Below are positions 2,996 to 63,323 of a stretch of DNA of 64,000 nucleotides, piece by piece (within the stretch, counting starts at the first letter, position 1; the number at the start of each line of letters is the position of its first letter). Both the position numbers and the translations under genes were made by a program. Below the pieces are notes generated by a model, which was not told where the DNA came from, did not search any database, and worked only from the letters and a program-made list of their open reading frames with translations. This DNA comes from Rhodospirillaceae bacterium (lineage in GTDB: Bacteria; Pseudomonadota; Alphaproteobacteria; Rhodospirillales; Rhodospirillaceae): positions 248,001 to 312,000 of the forward strand of contig CANJRD010000001.1 of NCBI GenBank assembly GCA_947476695.1, given 5' to 3'.

Positions 2996-3649
2996 ATGAA
3001 ATTCTTCGTCGATACCGCCGATCTCAACGAGATCAAGGACCTTGCCGCCACCGGAATGGTGGACGGCGTCACAACCAACCCGTCGCTGGCCGCGAAGTCC
3101 GGCAAGAAGTTCGTCGACCTGATTGCCGAGATTTGCGCCGTGGTGCCCGGCCCGGTCAGCGCGGAAGTCACCGCGCTCGATCATGCCACGATGATGAAGG
3201 AAGCGGCGGTCCTGAAGAAGATCGCCAAGAACGTGACAATTAAAGTGCCGCTGACGCCGGACGGCCTGAAGACCTGCAAAGCGCTGTCGTCCGAGGGGAC
3301 TATGGTCAACGTGACCCTGTGCTTCTCCGCCAACCAGGCGCTGCTGGCCGCCAAGGCGGGCGCGGCGTTCATCTCGCCCTTCGTCGGCCGTTTGGACGAC
3401 ATCGGCTATGACGGCTTGGAGCTGATCGCCGACATCTGCCAAATCTACAATAACTATGAATTCAAGACCGAGGTGTTGGTCGCATCGATCCGCCACCCGG
3501 TGCACGTGCTGCAGGCCGCCAAACTGGGCGCCCATGTCGGCACCATGCCGCCGTCTACCCTACGGGCCCTGTTCAACCATCCCTTAACCGACAAGGGCCT
3601 AAAAGCGTTCATGGACGATTGGGCCAAGACCGGACAGTCGATTATCTGA
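2996..3649 (+). CDS. fsa: transaldolase / fructose-6-phosphate aldolase family
   Basis: This is a 217-residue short-type (class 3B) transaldolase, a TIM barrel. It opens [16 protein letters not shown] and carries [13 protein letters not shown]; the Schiff-base lysine is in NVTIKVPLT near residue 83. [15 protein letters not shown] and [11 protein letters not shown] are further family motifs. It would interconvert fructose-6-phosphate with dihydroxyacetone or sedoheptulose phosphates in the cytoplasm. Sequence alone does not separate transaldolase from aldolase activity. It appears to head a rightward run with the DUF484 gene and xerC. Confidence 0.95.
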
Positions 3650-59196: not shown

Positions 59197-60078
59197 CTAA
59201 TCGCCGGTGTATCCGCAGGCCTTCAGGTCGGCCAGCATGTGCGCCGGCGGCGGCGCGGTCACCTTGATCGGCGGACGCGAGGGGCTGAGCGGCAGGGCAA
59301 TCGAACGGGAGTGCAGCTGCAGGGACCCGCGCGCGGGGTCGTAAGGCTGCGGTCCGTAGACCGGGTCGCCGACCACGGGGCAGCCGATCTCCGCGCAGTG
59401 CACGCGGATCTGGTGTGTGCGGCCGGTGTGTGGCTCGAGTTCGAGCCACGTGCGAACGCCGTTCGGCGTCTGCGCGGTGCCACGCACTTTGTAAGCGGTG
59501 ACGGCGTCCTGCCCATGAGGATGGACGACCATCTTCCAGCCCTTGCCCGGCGTTTCCTTGCGCAATTTATAGGTGATCAGGCCTTCCGGCTTTTTCGGCA
59601 CGCCCTCAACGATGGCCCAATAAACCTTCTTCGCCTTCCCGGCGGCGAACATCGCGCCGGTCTTGCGCAGGGCCTTGGGGTGACGGCCCAGCACCAGGCA
59701 GCCGGACGTATCGCGATCGAGACGATGCGCAAGCGACGGCGGGCGCGGCAGGCCGAATTTGAGCGCGTCGAACAGGTCTTCGAGGTTAGGGCCGCCGCCG
59801 GGACCTCCATGCACCGGGATGCCGGTAGGCTTGTTGATCACCAGCACCAAGGCATCGCGATACAGGACGCGGGTGAGCAGCTCCTCGCGCGACACGGCGA
59901 TCGAGGGCGTGCGCGGCGTCGATCGCGGCGGCGGACGGTCGCCGCGATCGCTGTGACGATGGCTGCCGCGATGGCCGTCGCGAGGACTTTCGCGTTGGCC
60001 ATCACGGGGCGGCTTGCCACGATGCCGTTTGGCTTTTGGTGGTCGAGATGCGGACATAGAGGCGTTGCTGCACGACAT
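59197..60078 (-). CDS. RluA-family RNA pseudouridine synthase
   Basis: The 293-residue protein has the catalytic aspartate in HRLDRDTSGCLVL. LELEPHTGRTHQIRVHCAEIG and VVGDPVYG are family motifs. The N-terminal 50 residues are Arg/His/Asp-rich and low in complexity (REQSPRDG-like repeats), probably disordered and RNA-binding. The start is uncertain: ATG 60078 and ATG 60057 are both possible and neither has a good ribosome site. The target RNA (tRNA or 23S rRNA) is not evident. Confidence 0.9.
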   Translation of the reverse strand: MSCSNASMSASRPPKAKRHRGKPPRDGQRESPRDGHRGSHRHSDRGDRPPPRSTPRTPSIAVSREELLTRVLYRDALVLVINKPTGIPVHGGPGGGPNLEDLFDALKFGLPRPPSLAHRLDRDTSGCLVLGRHPKALRKTGAMFAAGKAKKVYWAIVEGVPKKPEGLITYKLRKETPGKGWKMVVHPHGQDAVTAYKVRGTAQTPNGVRTWLELEPHTGRTHQIRVHCAEIGCPVVGDPVYGPQPYDPARGSLQLHSRSIALPLSPSRPPIKVTAPPPAHMLADLKACGYTGD

Positions 60079-60123
60079 CGCAAAGGTAATCAAGTTTTTC
60101 CGGCGATGCAGGCGCCTCGGGCC

Positions 60124-60153
60124 TGGACCAAGAGCCCGTCACATCGCTAGGTT
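60124..60153 (+). promoter_or_regulatory. possible promoter of the GT-like gene
   Basis: TGGACC (60124-60129), an 18-base spacer and TAGGTT (60148-60153) in a CGCTAGGTTG context. The surrounding 45 bases resemble those before tRNA-Leu (61146-61190). Confidence 0.35.
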
Positions 60154-60177
60154 GCCAGCGGACTTCAGGGATCCGGC

Positions 60178-61140
60178 ATGGACGTCTTCATAAAATCCTT
60201 CAACAGAATGTTCTGCTTGGCGCGCTGTTTGGCGACCGTTGAGAAGTATGTGGTCGGCGCGTCGCACATCGTCGTCCTGGACGACGGCACGCCGCGTGTT
60301 TTTCTCGATGTCGTTCAGAAGCGCTATCCCAACGTCGAGATCATCCAGCCGCCGCATGGCGAGAGGAAGACCGAACTCGTCGCAAATGGAATCTACAACG
60401 AGCGCTTTTCACCGGAAGAGTATGAGAAATGGGGGCTGATGAACCCCAGCGCGTTTTGGCGGGAAGAGATCGGAAAAAGCCAGAGCGAATACGTTTGTGT
60501 CTTGGAAGAGGACGTCTGGTTCGTTCGCCCCCTTGATCTGAACGCCGTGAAGCGGCGCCTTTCCGCGCACAACACTCTTATCTTTCACCTGTGGCTGCGA
60601 GCGATAACCGCGGCGGCGCGCCCTACCCTCACAAGCGTGAGGGCGGCCATCGACGATGGACTGACGGCGATCTACTTCGAGCCCCACATCAAGATGAATG
60701 TCGACCGGAGCCAAGTGTTCGTTCCGGCCCAAGCCATATACAAAAGGGACTACTTCACGAAGGCGTTCTCGGCGACCGACTATCGGTTCACCGTCAAATC
60801 GCAGTTTAATCTCGCCGTGGAGTACATCAACGCCCTGACGACCACGCCGACGTTTGCCTACGCCGAACACGATCTCGTCGTGCACGGCTTCACAACGACG
60901 TCGCGGAAAACAGAACTTACGGGCGAGGCTTTCGACCCGTTCCCCATGAACCGGGCCTTGAACCAGGCGATGCACGACGATCGTTTCGATTACTGCGCGG
61001 ATCTGCCGCGCGATTTCTCGGAAGCCCGGATTTTTGAGACGATTGAGCAGTATGTGTCGCGCGACAAAGCGGTCGAATGGCAGGCCTGGTATAAGAAATT
61101 CCAGGACTATTACCGAAGCCTGGGCGACGTCATCGGCTAG
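60178..61140 (+). CDS. putative GT-A-type glycosyltransferase
   Basis: The 320-residue protein opens MDVFIKSFNRMFCLARCLAT and HIVVLDDGTPRVF, like the nucleotide-binding strand of GT-A enzymes; CVLEEDVWFVRPLD could be the acidic metal site. No named family is clear to me and no membrane helix is present. It is less GC-rich in feel than the genes to its left (many AAA, TTT and TAT codons), which suggests acquisition. It marks the left edge of the accessory block next to tRNA-Leu. Confidence 0.65.
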   Translation: MDVFIKSFNRMFCLARCLATVEKYVVGASHIVVLDDGTPRVFLDVVQKRYPNVEIIQPPHGERKTELVANGIYNERFSPEEYEKWGLMNPSAFWREEIGKSQSEYVCVLEEDVWFVRPLDLNAVKRRLSAHNTLIFHLWLRAITAAARPTLTSVRAAIDDGLTAIYFEPHIKMNVDRSQVFVPAQAIYKRDYFTKAFSATDYRFTVKSQFNLAVEYINALTTTPTFAYAEHDLVVHGFTTTSRKTELTGEAFDPFPMNRALNQAMHDDRFDYCADLPRDFSEARIFETIEQYVSRDKAVEWQAWYKKFQDYYRSLGDVIG

Positions 61141-61154
61141 GCTTGCGTTCGGGC

Positions 61155-61183
61155 TGGCCCCAAGACGCCGACCTCGCTAGGTT
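61155..61183 (+). promoter_or_regulatory. possible tRNA-Leu promoter
   Basis: TGGCCC (61155-61160), a 17-base spacer and TAGGTT (61178-61183) precede the tRNA by 12 bases. The -35 box is poor, but the CGCTAGG box is shared with two other probable promoters here. Confidence 0.35.
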
Positions 61184-61195
61184 GGCGCCGCGCCT

Positions 61196-61284
61196 GCCCG
61201 CGTGGCGAAATTGGTAGACGCAAGGGACTTAAAATCCCTCGATCCGTAAGGATCGTGCCGGTTCAAGTCCGGCCGCGGGCACCA
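61196..61284 (+). tRNA. tRNA-Leu (anticodon UAA)
   Basis: The acceptor arms GCCCGCG and CGCGGGC pair. The D-loop TTGGTAGA, the anticodon stem-loop GGGACTTAAAATCCC (anticodon TAA), a long class II variable arm (GATCCGTAAGGATC) and the T-loop GGTTCAAGTCC follow, and CCA is encoded (61282-61284). A decayed copy of its 3' half lies 640 bases downstream. Confidence 0.97.
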
Positions 61285-61895
61285 TCACAATTGCGACCGG
61301 AGTGCCCCTGCACATCGAGCAAGGCGACCTCATGCCAGATCGACCCTGCCGTATGAATCATGCGATCTGCTGTTAGATCGAAATCGTGATGGAGATAGAC
61401 GTTGGCGAGAAATACACCATCCGATCGATCAAGCTGCCGCTTCACGAGCTTAAGAAAGCGAGGTGACTGCAGGTGCTGTGGAATTATGCTTCCGTTGTAA
61501 GCGTCGAGAACAATCGCATCATAAAACTCCCGGCAATTTCTTAAGTATTCCGCGCCGTCCGCGACGACGCATTTCACCTGCGCCGGCATTTGAAAATAGT
61601 CGCGGGCCAAATGAAATGTGTTTGGGTTGTTATCGATGACAGTGACCCGCGCTCCAGATCGCACCAGGAGTGTGGCGAGCGTCCCGCCACCGCAGCCAAT
61701 CATCAGAACGCGCTGAGAGCGCTTCTGCCAGAGCAGGCTGAAAAGGGCGTGGATGTAAGATGACAGGCTGACCCCCTGCTCATCCGCTTCGCTCTGACAA
61801 CAATCACCCTGCTCGTAGACAAACGCGCCGGTTTGAATCTTTTTCCGAACGACGATTTCCCCAGCCGAACTAGCGAGCGATGCGACGGTGATCAT
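61263..61895 (-). CDS. spermidine-synthase-like methyltransferase-fold protein
   Basis: The 210-residue protein has the spermine/spermidine synthase core: GAFVYEQGDCCQSEAD, VLMIGCGGGTLATLLV, VTVIDNNPNTFHLAR, VVADGAEYL and YDAIVLDAYNGSIIPQHL. It may be a polyamine aminopropyltransferase or a relative; polyamine activity is not proven by sequence. ATG 61895 is chosen because earlier codons are only translated tRNA remnant. The last seven codons and the TGA lie antisense inside tRNA-Leu. It is the only gene between the tRNA and its decayed copy, and is visibly less GC-rich than core genes. Confidence 0.72.
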   Translation of the reverse strand: MITVASLASSAGEIVVRKKIQTGAFVYEQGDCCQSEADEQGVSLSSYIHALFSLLWQKRSQRVLMIGCGGGTLATLLVRSGARVTVIDNNPNTFHLARDYFQMPAQVKCVVADGAEYLRNCREFYDAIVLDAYNGSIIPQHLQSPRFLKLVKRQLDRSDGVFLANVYLHHDFDLTADRMIHTAGSIWHEVALLDVQGHSGRNCDGARGRT

Positions 61896-61921
61896 GTGAA
61901 ACTGCCTGTAGCCAATCGGAA

Positions 61922-61975
61922 TAAAATCTCTCGATCCATAATGATTGTGCCGGTTCAAGTCGGCTGCGGGCACCA
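61922..61975 (+). repeat. decayed copy of the tRNA-Leu 3' half (att-like)
   Basis: From TAAAATC through GGTTCAAGTC to GGGCACCA this matches tRNA-Leu 61230-61284 in the same orientation, with about five substitutions and one deletion over 54 bases. The match covers the anticodon loop to CCA, the segment usually duplicated when an element integrates into a tRNA gene. Weaker similarity may continue leftward to about 61893. Confidence 0.85.
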
Positions 61976-62011: not shown

Positions 62012-62215
62012 TTAGGGAGTGTCCGTAGCGATCGTGGTCCCTTGGGCGGTTTCTGCGTGGAGTTCCCCCATGAAGTGATAGCTGCCGGGCTTTAGCGGCC
62101 CAATTTGGAAACTTACTTCGCCGTGGGAAGCAACGTCCTTTTCCACGTGAAGATCGTCGCCATCAAATTCCTCCGCCGTGCCATTCTCAGCCGAAACGGA
62201 TAGTATTTGAAAGCC
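62012..62215 (-). pseudogene. C-terminal fragment of a cupredoxin-domain gene
   Basis: Read leftward, the frame encodes FQILSVSAENGTAEEFDGDD, then LHVEKDV, IGPLKPGSYHFMGELHAETA and a short end, resembling the C-terminal half of small periplasmic cupredoxin-like proteins (EEFE...LKPGxYxFxGEFH...TA). The signal peptide and N-terminal strands are missing; upstream the frame runs antisense into the sulfatase-modifying-factor-like gene and loses resemblance. It looks like a truncated gene. Confidence 0.6.
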
Positions 62216-62251
62216 GGCGCGCGGGATATTATTCCGCCGGGGATAAACGGG

Positions 62252-63262
62252 ATGCACCGCATGACACGATTGATTTCCGTCGCGTTGATTCTTCTTTTGG
62301 GAGTTTACGGCGCGGCGCGGGCCGCTGACGCGATCAAGCCAGGCGCGGTCTTCCGGGATTGCCCCACGTGTCCGGAACTGGTGGCGATACCGGCCGGCGC
62401 CTTCGACATGGGCTCGACCGCAGTAGAATCCGATCGCGAGCGCATGCCGCCGCTGTACGCCGCCAACGAGCAGCCCCGTCACCGCGTCACCATCGCCAAG
62501 CCGTTCGCGCTTGGCCGTTTTGAGGTGAACCGCGCCGAGTATGCCGCTTTCGTCGAGGCGACCCAGCGCGATGATGGTTTCTTTTGCCGTATTTACGATG
62601 CGCGCGGCGTCTTGTTCGTCACAACGCCGGGCAAATCTTGGAAAGACGTGGGCTTCCCTCAGACCGATGACCATCCAGTCGTCTGCGTGAGCTGGGACGA
62701 CGCGGTCGCCTATGCCAACTGGCTTTCCTCCAAGACCGGCAAGACCTATCGTCTGCCTAGCGAGGCCGAATGGGAATACGCCGCACGCGGCGGCACCAGC
62801 ACTGCGCGCTGGTGGGGCGATTCCGTCGACGGCGCTTGCGCCTATGCCAATGTCGGCGACCAGGATGCCGGCGATGGCCCATACCTGTGGGGAAAGCCGG
62901 GGGCCCCGGTCACCTACGATCTCAAGGGCGCCGAACGGCTGGTGCGATGCCGGGACGGTTATGCGTTCACCGCGCCGGTGGGAAAATACAAACCGAACCC
63001 CTTTGGCCTGTTTGATATGCTGGGCAATGCGTGGGAATGGGTGGCCGACTGTCGGCACGACACCTACGCTGGTGCGCCGCCTCTGGACGGCTCGGCATGG
63101 GACGCGGCACCCGATCACTGCGTGTCTGGTCTTAGGGTGAACCGCGGTGCCTCCTGGGCGCACTTCCCCTGGGGCATCCGCGCCGCCTTGCGCAACGTCA
63201 ATCCAGCCGATTCGCGCTTCTACACCCAAGGCTTCCGGGTCGCGCGCGAACTCGAACCCTGA
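62252..63262 (+). CDS. secreted formylglycine-generating-enzyme-like (SUMF1 fold) protein
   Basis: The 336-residue protein has a signal peptide (cleavage near ARA, residue 24) and then a full SUMF1/FGE-type domain: LVAIPAGAFDMGS, FEVNRAEYAAFV, HPVVCVSWDDAVAYANWLS, YRLPSEAEWEYAARGG, NPFGLFDMLGNAWEWVADC and NRGASWAHFPWGIRAALRN, ending GFRVARE. The active-site cysteine pair of true formylglycine-generating enzymes is absent from the last segment, so another role is likely. A second ATG at 62261 is also a possible start. No sulfatase gene is near. Confidence 0.85.
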   Translation: MHRMTRLISVALILLLGVYGAARAADAIKPGAVFRDCPTCPELVAIPAGAFDMGSTAVESDRERMPPLYAANEQPRHRVTIAKPFALGRFEVNRAEYAAFVEATQRDDGFFCRIYDARGVLFVTTPGKSWKDVGFPQTDDHPVVCVSWDDAVAYANWLSSKTGKTYRLPSEAEWEYAARGGTSTARWWGDSVDGACAYANVGDQDAGDGPYLWGKPGAPVTYDLKGAERLVRCRDGYAFTAPVGKYKPNPFGLFDMLGNAWEWVADCRHDTYAGAPPLDGSAWDAAPDHCVSGLRVNRGASWAHFPWGIRAALRNVNPADSRFYTQGFRVARELEP

Positions 63263-63323
63263 ACGCCGCGGCGCGCGGTGACATTAGGCCGCCGGTCCAG
63301 CTTGGCGAGATCGACGACGTGCC

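Follow-up and report, generated by a model that had tools for sequence, protein, structure and literature searches.

A probable remnant of an integrative element, reduced to one methyltransferase-like gene, between tRNA-Leu(UAA) and a displaced copy of its 3' half in a Rhodospirillaceae genome

Genomic islands recognised from a tRNA gene and its displaced 3' fragment are well established, as the consulted part of the Islander study describes (PMC4383910). The fGI-2 islands of Methylophilaceae, in the consulted part of their report, range from 330 bp with one CDS up to 42 kb and show direct repeats of a tRNA end and variable content (PMC10872708). The same part describes Tycheposons, which are tRNA-bordered elements of 4-200 kb with cargo and a tyrosine recombinase. 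Moreover, tRNA gene fragments are treated as integration scars, expected to be pervasive in prokaryotes, in the consulted sections of another study (PMC9897764).

We analysed a stretch of 64,000 nucleotides (the window) from a Rhodospirillaceae genome, here G000, in which a tRNA-Leu(UAA) gene is followed by a partial copy of itself. The features of the locus are:

59197..60093, minus strand: pseudouridine synthase, left neighbour (Pfam; tblastn)
61196..61284, plus strand: tRNA-Leu(UAA), CCA encoded (ARAGORN; Rfam RF00005, 59.7 bits)
61230..61284, plus strand: repeated 3' part, tRNA bases 35-89, anticodon to CCA (local alignment)
61263..61895, minus strand: class I methyltransferase / spermidine-synthase-like gene (Pfam, NCBIfam, tblastn, relatives)
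61285..61921, no strand: insert between the repeats, 637 bp, GC 0.54 versus 0.64 for the window
61922..61975, plus strand: displaced, decaying tRNA-Leu 3' half, ending in CCA (alignment; family survey)
62212..63282, plus strand: formylglycine-generating-enzyme-like gene block (FGE-sulfatase, 7e-58, Pfam)

Like Islander islands, the locus combines an intact tRNA gene, a displaced fragment in the same orientation that runs to the 3' end, and content between them, and of the two subsite groups counted in the consulted part of that study the anticodon-centred one matches it (PMC4383910). Islander, as described there, includes an integrase and a length of 2-200 kb in its definition and rejects candidates that lack an integrase or are shorter than 2 kb, whereas the window locus has no integrase and measures ~0.7 kb. 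As in fGI-2, the end of a single tRNA is directly repeated, the content varies and the size can be small; the fGI-2 islands described use tRNA-Lys and a 20-nt repeat in varying numbers, whereas the window has tRNA-Leu(UAA) and one 54-nt repeat (PMC10872708). It resembles the Tycheposons, as relayed in that report, in its tRNA border and cargo, but its insert has no recombinase. Unlike the window locus, the examples in the consulted sections of PMC9897764 still hold ~9-121 kb of element. This class of tRNA scar is already known, and the window locus is an ordinary kind of scar that falls outside Islander's filters because of its small size and lack of an integrase. Scars below those length and integrase filters, as the consulted part gives them (PMC4383910), are therefore probably undercounted.

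The tRNA-Leu(UAA) gene is the sole tRNA gene that ARAGORN and Rfam found in the window. An earlier note, made from the sequence alone, had claimed that its last bases, from anticodon to CCA, recur in the same orientation at about 90% identity, and local alignment confirmed this: 49 of 55 columns are identical between 61922-61975 and tRNA bases 35-89, with five substitutions and one 1-base deletion, and the score of 78 compares with a maximum of 27 at just under 3000 random window places. The length of 55 in that note holds for the alignment columns, while the downstream copy itself has 54 bases. The five substitutions and the deletion look like simple decay. Between the tRNA end and the copy, on the same strand, lie 637 bp (61285-61921).

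If tRNA-Leu, or its 3' half together with adjoining DNA, had been duplicated in tandem and one copy had then decayed, such an imperfect repeat could lie only 0.64 kb away, and the note had suggested that a weak likeness to the tRNA 5' half left of 61922 would support it. That likeness was not found: the best score in 61840-61930 is 5, below the null mean of 6.8. The note had also proposed covariance-model scoring of the repeat region; neither Rfam nor ARAGORN matched the displaced copy, and a pseudo-tRNA at 61880-61975 was rejected on these results together with the missing 5' half. A weak ~53-nt direct repeat of the tRNA 5' flank (~61134-61184), found about 1 kb upstream at 60101-60155, would favour duplication. 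In local alignment its score is reached by 0.2% of 5000 random placements, about the level of self-overlap, but BLAST does not find this repeat and we set it aside as evidence. Moreover, each of the 53 tRNA-Leu(UAA) stretches surveyed below contains exactly one such gene, so that the two intact tandem genes named in the note as a refuting case were not seen. Relatives have different genes between their repeats, no second copy of the methyltransferase-like gene occurs in the genome, and the displaced copy in one relative (G077, below) differs from its own gene by a compensated T-stem pair. We consider a decayed duplication very improbable.

As the note had stated, the interval is shorter than 700 bp and integrase-free: no integrase, integrase fragment or PF00589 match was found in 61285..61921. 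Its count of exactly one spermidine-synthase-like gene is also correct, since the only ORF between the repeats, on the minus strand, matches Methyltransf_25 (4.5e-8) and Spermine_synth (6.3e-7) in Pfam. The mechanical ORF (61982-61263) reads through both repeats; the gene itself likely starts at ATG 61895, where the relatives' proteins begin, and its stop and last codons fall in the antisense of the tRNA. Close relatives of the gene occur in G020, with 79% identity over read-through ORF residues 24-233 and a single stop in the G020 frame, and on contig L063 (78% identity). Homology to the L063 protein reaches residue 231 of the read-through ORF, which is base 61290, 5 nt from the CCA (tblastn), and ~64 C-terminal residues are missing relative to that 267-aa protein. 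The junction likely truncated the C terminus of the window gene, and the G020 copy ends near the same point, at 203 aa. DNA homology to the G020 locus spans 61314-61910, including 15 nt upstream of the ATG. The gene nearly fills the insert, with 5 nt to the CCA and 11 nt to the fragment. In G020 its neighbours are pckA-like, GcrA-like and thiolase-like ORFs (named by eye), and no tRNA-Phe 3' repeat was found at that locus. No second copy of the gene or of the unit was found elsewhere in the window's genome, and among solved structures the protein had no match at E<=0.001. Branch-specific codon changes number 14, 9 and 34 at positions 1, 2 and 3, which would fit past purifying selection at a time that cannot be placed after the insertion. 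A defence role was considered from a PADLOC match to the methyltransferase model mad2 (5.2e-12), which is partial only and was not so read.

We surveyed 53 of the 73 family genomes over 720,025 bases downstream of tRNA-Leu(UAA), using each genome's own last 60 tRNA bases as the query and a score threshold of 17; some stretches were short at contig ends, with a minimum of 543 bases. Forward 3' fragments on the same contig occur in four of the 53 genomes (G000, G001, G002 and G077), and no reverse-strand match reached the threshold in any of the 53. G000, G001 and G002 belong to the window's genus, in which all three genomes compared thus carry a fragment. The fragments comprise 55 columns in G000, 52 columns ~3 kb away in G001, 30 nt exact 557 bp away in G002 and 35 nt with 2 mismatches 1.26 kb away in G077. 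The threshold misses 16-nt fragments such as those of L063; an ungapped suffix test (minimum 14 nt) gave no extra fragments and is also blind to the window's own gapped copy. Within the window's genome, a downstream fragment was found at only one of 41 tRNA loci, that of tRNA-Leu(UAA), with up to 14 kb examined at each of the other 40 and several limited to 0.1-2 kb by contig ends. With regard to the repeated insertions that would mark an additive island, this tRNA has only one repeat in its own genome, and sister species have insertions at the same tRNA; no second tRNA-Leu fragment, which would be a further accreted scar, was found within 59.7 kb downstream.

All four same-contig inserts are small (0.56-3.0 kb) and each has a different cargo: TylF-like and Methyltransf_23 genes in G001, DUF4160 and DUF2442 in G002, and TacA and GNAT as the two ORFs scanned in G077. 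No PF00589 match was found in the inserts of G000, G001 and G002. The same architecture with different cargo, in three members of the genus and in G077, supports the earlier note in reading the repeat as the trace left when an element integrates at the 3' end of a tRNA gene. The tested toxin-antitoxin system dhiTA pairs the domains DUF4160 and DUF2442, according to the part of its study consulted (PMC8198452), and the G002 pair gives NCBIfam DhiT matches below the cut-off of that family. Thus, two of the three other small inserts carry cargo that is or resembles a toxin-antitoxin pair, which fits addictive genes outlasting their element. The compensated T-stem pair of the G077 copy is T-A for C-G relative to its own tRNA 3' half, and the copy is identical over 35 nt to the intact tRNA of G089. 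Two functional origins for gene and copy would predict this pattern; a later change of both gene bases is also possible. Reverse transcription primed by the tRNA was considered as a source of these inserts and dropped, the gene being antisense to the tRNA in the window and sense in G001 and G002.

Islands at tRNA sites hold different content at the same site in related genomes, and this is the case here. HSP20 is a recurring right anchor, detected by tblastn in 25 of 57 stretches (the 53 genomes and four outward flanks of separate fragments). The distance from the first base of the tRNA to HSP20 ranges from 292 bp in G083, which supplied the query, to 18.4 kb in G001; in the window's genome it is 9.2 kb, which places HSP20 outside the window. 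The content of this interval varies among relatives, and the region from tRNA-Leu(UAA) to HSP20 is a variable insertion hotspot of 0.29-18.4 kb. On the left side, each of eight genomes compared shares genes with some of the others, with not every gene in each. The pseudouridine synthase is also the left neighbour in G001, G002, G020, G035 and G009, at five of the 12 loci searched (tblastn).

Displaced tRNA-Leu(UAA) 3' halves also lie on separate contigs in G009, G018, G063 and G064; no intact tRNA-Leu(UAA) was found in the G018 assembly. Three of these fragments, those of G018, G063 and G009, have a tyrosine integrase next to them on the island side and begin in the anticodon stem-loop, near the start of the window copy. 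These three integrases, in other genomes of the family, lend further weight to the integration footprint claimed in the note. The G018 protein contains Arm-DNA-bind_3 and Phage_integrase domains, with which the proteins of G063 and G009 share 68% and 69% identity (that of G009 is cut by the contig end). Matches at E<=1e-100 were confined to G018, G063 and G009 among 317 order-level genomes, with up to 5 candidates scored in each. A displaced 3' half of tRNA-Leu(UAA) thus lies next to each of three related integrases from other genera, so that this element class targets tRNA-Leu(UAA).

In all three genomes, the DNA that separates the fragment from the integrase contains a doubled 11-bp arm-like motif, TACGGGTACCATACGGGTACC. 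When up to 2 mismatches are allowed, the doubled motif occurs at 10 places in 7 of the 73 genomes, and at none with the reversed control. Three places are at intact tRNA-Leu(UAA) genes, three at these integrases and fragments, three at tRNA-Phe and one where no tRNA was found; nine of the 10 thus adjoin a tRNA or such a fragment. In addition, TCAATGRCTTA (<=2 mismatches) directly follows the CCA at 5 of the 53 tRNA-Leu loci, where chance would give 0.0025 per locus, and it follows three other tRNA genes of the window's genome without any mismatch. This site fits the IHF consensus, WATCAANNNNTTR. The arms and the IHF-like site together resemble classical attP anatomy.

The doubled TACGGGTACC arm motif and the IHF-like TCAATGRCTTA are absent at the window locus and present in some relatives. 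The window insert contains no arm motif within 2 mismatches, the sole such match lying inside the displaced copy, and no IHF-like site after the tRNA CCA. G001 has an exact IHF-like site and a single arm with 2 mismatches at the expected offset of 76 nt; about 0.9 such arms are expected by chance over 53 loci, and G017 also has one. G083 keeps the arms and the IHF-like site and has HSP20 only 0.29 kb away; its 1.8 kb of contig yielded no fragment above threshold, and the locus looks like a half-deleted island. The earlier note had proposed a search of relatives for an empty site ending at the tRNA CCA. A perfect one was not found in the relatives examined; the nearest case is G083, in which HSP20 lies 0.29 kb from the first base of the tRNA and the arm repeats remain.

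Taken together, these data indicate that the locus is probably an attL/attR scar, left by an integrative element that deletions have reduced to a single gene. An element with a tyrosine integrase would have recombined into the 3' half of tRNA-Leu(UAA). Its own copy of the tRNA 3' half would have restored the tRNA, making 61196..61284 the attL with a host 5' part and an element-derived 3' part, and the host's original half would have been displaced to the far end as attR (61922-61975), where it would have decayed once selection was lost. Deletions would then have removed the integrase, its binding arms and the rest of the cargo, so that a single methyltransferase-like gene survived, cut back to where the repeats begin, and the remnant should now be immobile. 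This reading draws on a repeat far above chance in the same orientation and with a CCA end, on its restriction to a single tRNA locus in the genome, on the fragments with different cargo in relatives, on the integrases and their common arm motif beside tRNA-Leu(UAA) halves, on the apparent decay stages in G083 and G001, and on the L063 methyltransferase gene between tRNA-Phe 3' copies, described below. The repeat, the site, the variable content of that site in relatives and an integrase class with this target elsewhere in the family are observed. However, the window insert has no trace of an integrase or arm, so that the recombinase responsible, arrival by such an integrase and the subsequent deletions are inferred. 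Moreover, the integrase clade is unmatched at E<=1e-60 in the three genus genomes, the single arm in G001 could be a chance match, and the gene fits the interval more tightly than random deletions readily give. As a shrunken element, the locus would show how far a tRNA-targeted element can be reduced and still be recognised, and the survey maps a family hotspot from tRNA-Leu(UAA) to HSP20 with its own integrase class and attachment-site anatomy.

The tight fit and the missing recombinase trace leave room for a one-gene cassette, consisting of the methyltransferase-like gene and a tRNA-Leu core site, that was excised and inserted by an integrase acting in trans. The small size of all four same-contig inserts points in this direction, as do the missing PF00589 matches in G000, G001 and G002, the TacA and GNAT identity of the two scanned G077 ORFs and the fact that tRNA-Leu and tRNA-Phe can have the same kind of arm motif beside them. 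However, integrases with Arm-DNA-bind_3 would presumably need an arm-like motif and an IHF-like site after the CCA, both of which the insert lacks, and the unit has no second copy in the genome. The L063 locus bears on both sides. There, the methyltransferase gene lies with SulP between two tRNA-Phe 3'-end copies and appears to travel as cargo in an array targeted to a tRNA. These copies bound its unit as they would a cassette, but it is not alone, sharing that unit with SulP and other ORFs. The L063 tRNA-Phe has three forward suffix copies, one of 16 nt exact and two of 16 and 15 nt with one mismatch each; none was found on the reverse strand or in 300 Markov surrogates, and a control over 3.76 Mb of other loci gave 2 matches with both strands counted. 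We regard the cassette as unlikely, and of the two options in the earlier note, a large element that shrank or a small mobilised cassette, the former is better supported and the latter possible. A broader version, in which single genes or pairs circulate between tRNA-Leu and tRNA-Phe 3' ends as compact recombinase-less 'tRNA cassettes' moved in trans, seems to us rather doubtful. If it were true, such cassettes would carry the core attachment site only, the resident integrases would share arm and IHF-like sites, and the length and integrase filters of island finders would discard the cassettes.

The integration scar could also have been made by an integrase of a different class, such as a core-only recombinase, in which case the analogy with G018, G063 and G009 misleads. 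The repeats differ in length, from 55 columns in G000 and 52 in G001 to 30 exact nt in G002 and 35 nt in G077, so that crossover at this tRNA may occur at more than one point, and the G064 fragment lies beside a Type IIG enzyme gene, with no match to that integrase. However, the start of the G000 repeat, at the anticodon, is near the starts seen with the integrase clade, and we consider a different class improbable.

Several further observations concern these loci. The Type IIG restriction-methyltransferase-like gene of G064 (L101:15-2459) ends ~80 nt before the displaced tRNA-Leu 3' half, which suggests defence cargo at the same tRNA-Leu site. In the same genome, at C203:12803-12965, the full tRNA-Leu match is immediately preceded by one to tRNA bases 1-39, which may be a 5' partial copy. 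The L063 region (CANJBL010000005.1, 1647-12591) is an apparent tandem array at tRNA-Phe, with forward 3' copies at 3222, 6904 and ~11251, all of which follow a similar AAGTNNTTGAT...TTG....ACGC stretch; with 1 mismatch, this stretch occurs in 7 of the 73 family genomes, with one control match. The three L063 motif copies equal those of G085:C5, in the window's family, in letters and spacing; the record is titled Candidatus Marinimicrobia, a name that is therefore probably wrong.

Around the window locus, the FGE-sulfatase-like block at 62212-63282 has 91.7% DNA identity to G001, where it likewise follows the tRNA repeat, versus 79.8% for the pseudouridine synthase gene, and the DNA directly flanking the block on both sides has no match to G001; the block may possibly have been exchanged recently. 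A cupredoxin-like C-terminal remnant (62012-62200, minus strand; Cupredoxin_1, 3e-10, profile 52-103 of 104) ends at the edge of this block. The ~53-nt 5'-flank repeat brackets a glycosyltransferase-like gene (60178-61140) that had no match when compared with the corresponding stretches from seven other genomes. Elsewhere in the genome, a stop-broken Phage_integrase remnant (G000:C2:327551-327969) lies ~2 kb from tRNA-Pro and tRNA-Arg genes. Exact TCAATGACTTA occurs 5-8 nt after the CCA of tRNA-Thr(TGT) at L184, tRNA-Thr(GGT) at L188 and tRNA-Glu(CTC) at L207, which are possible further attL sites.
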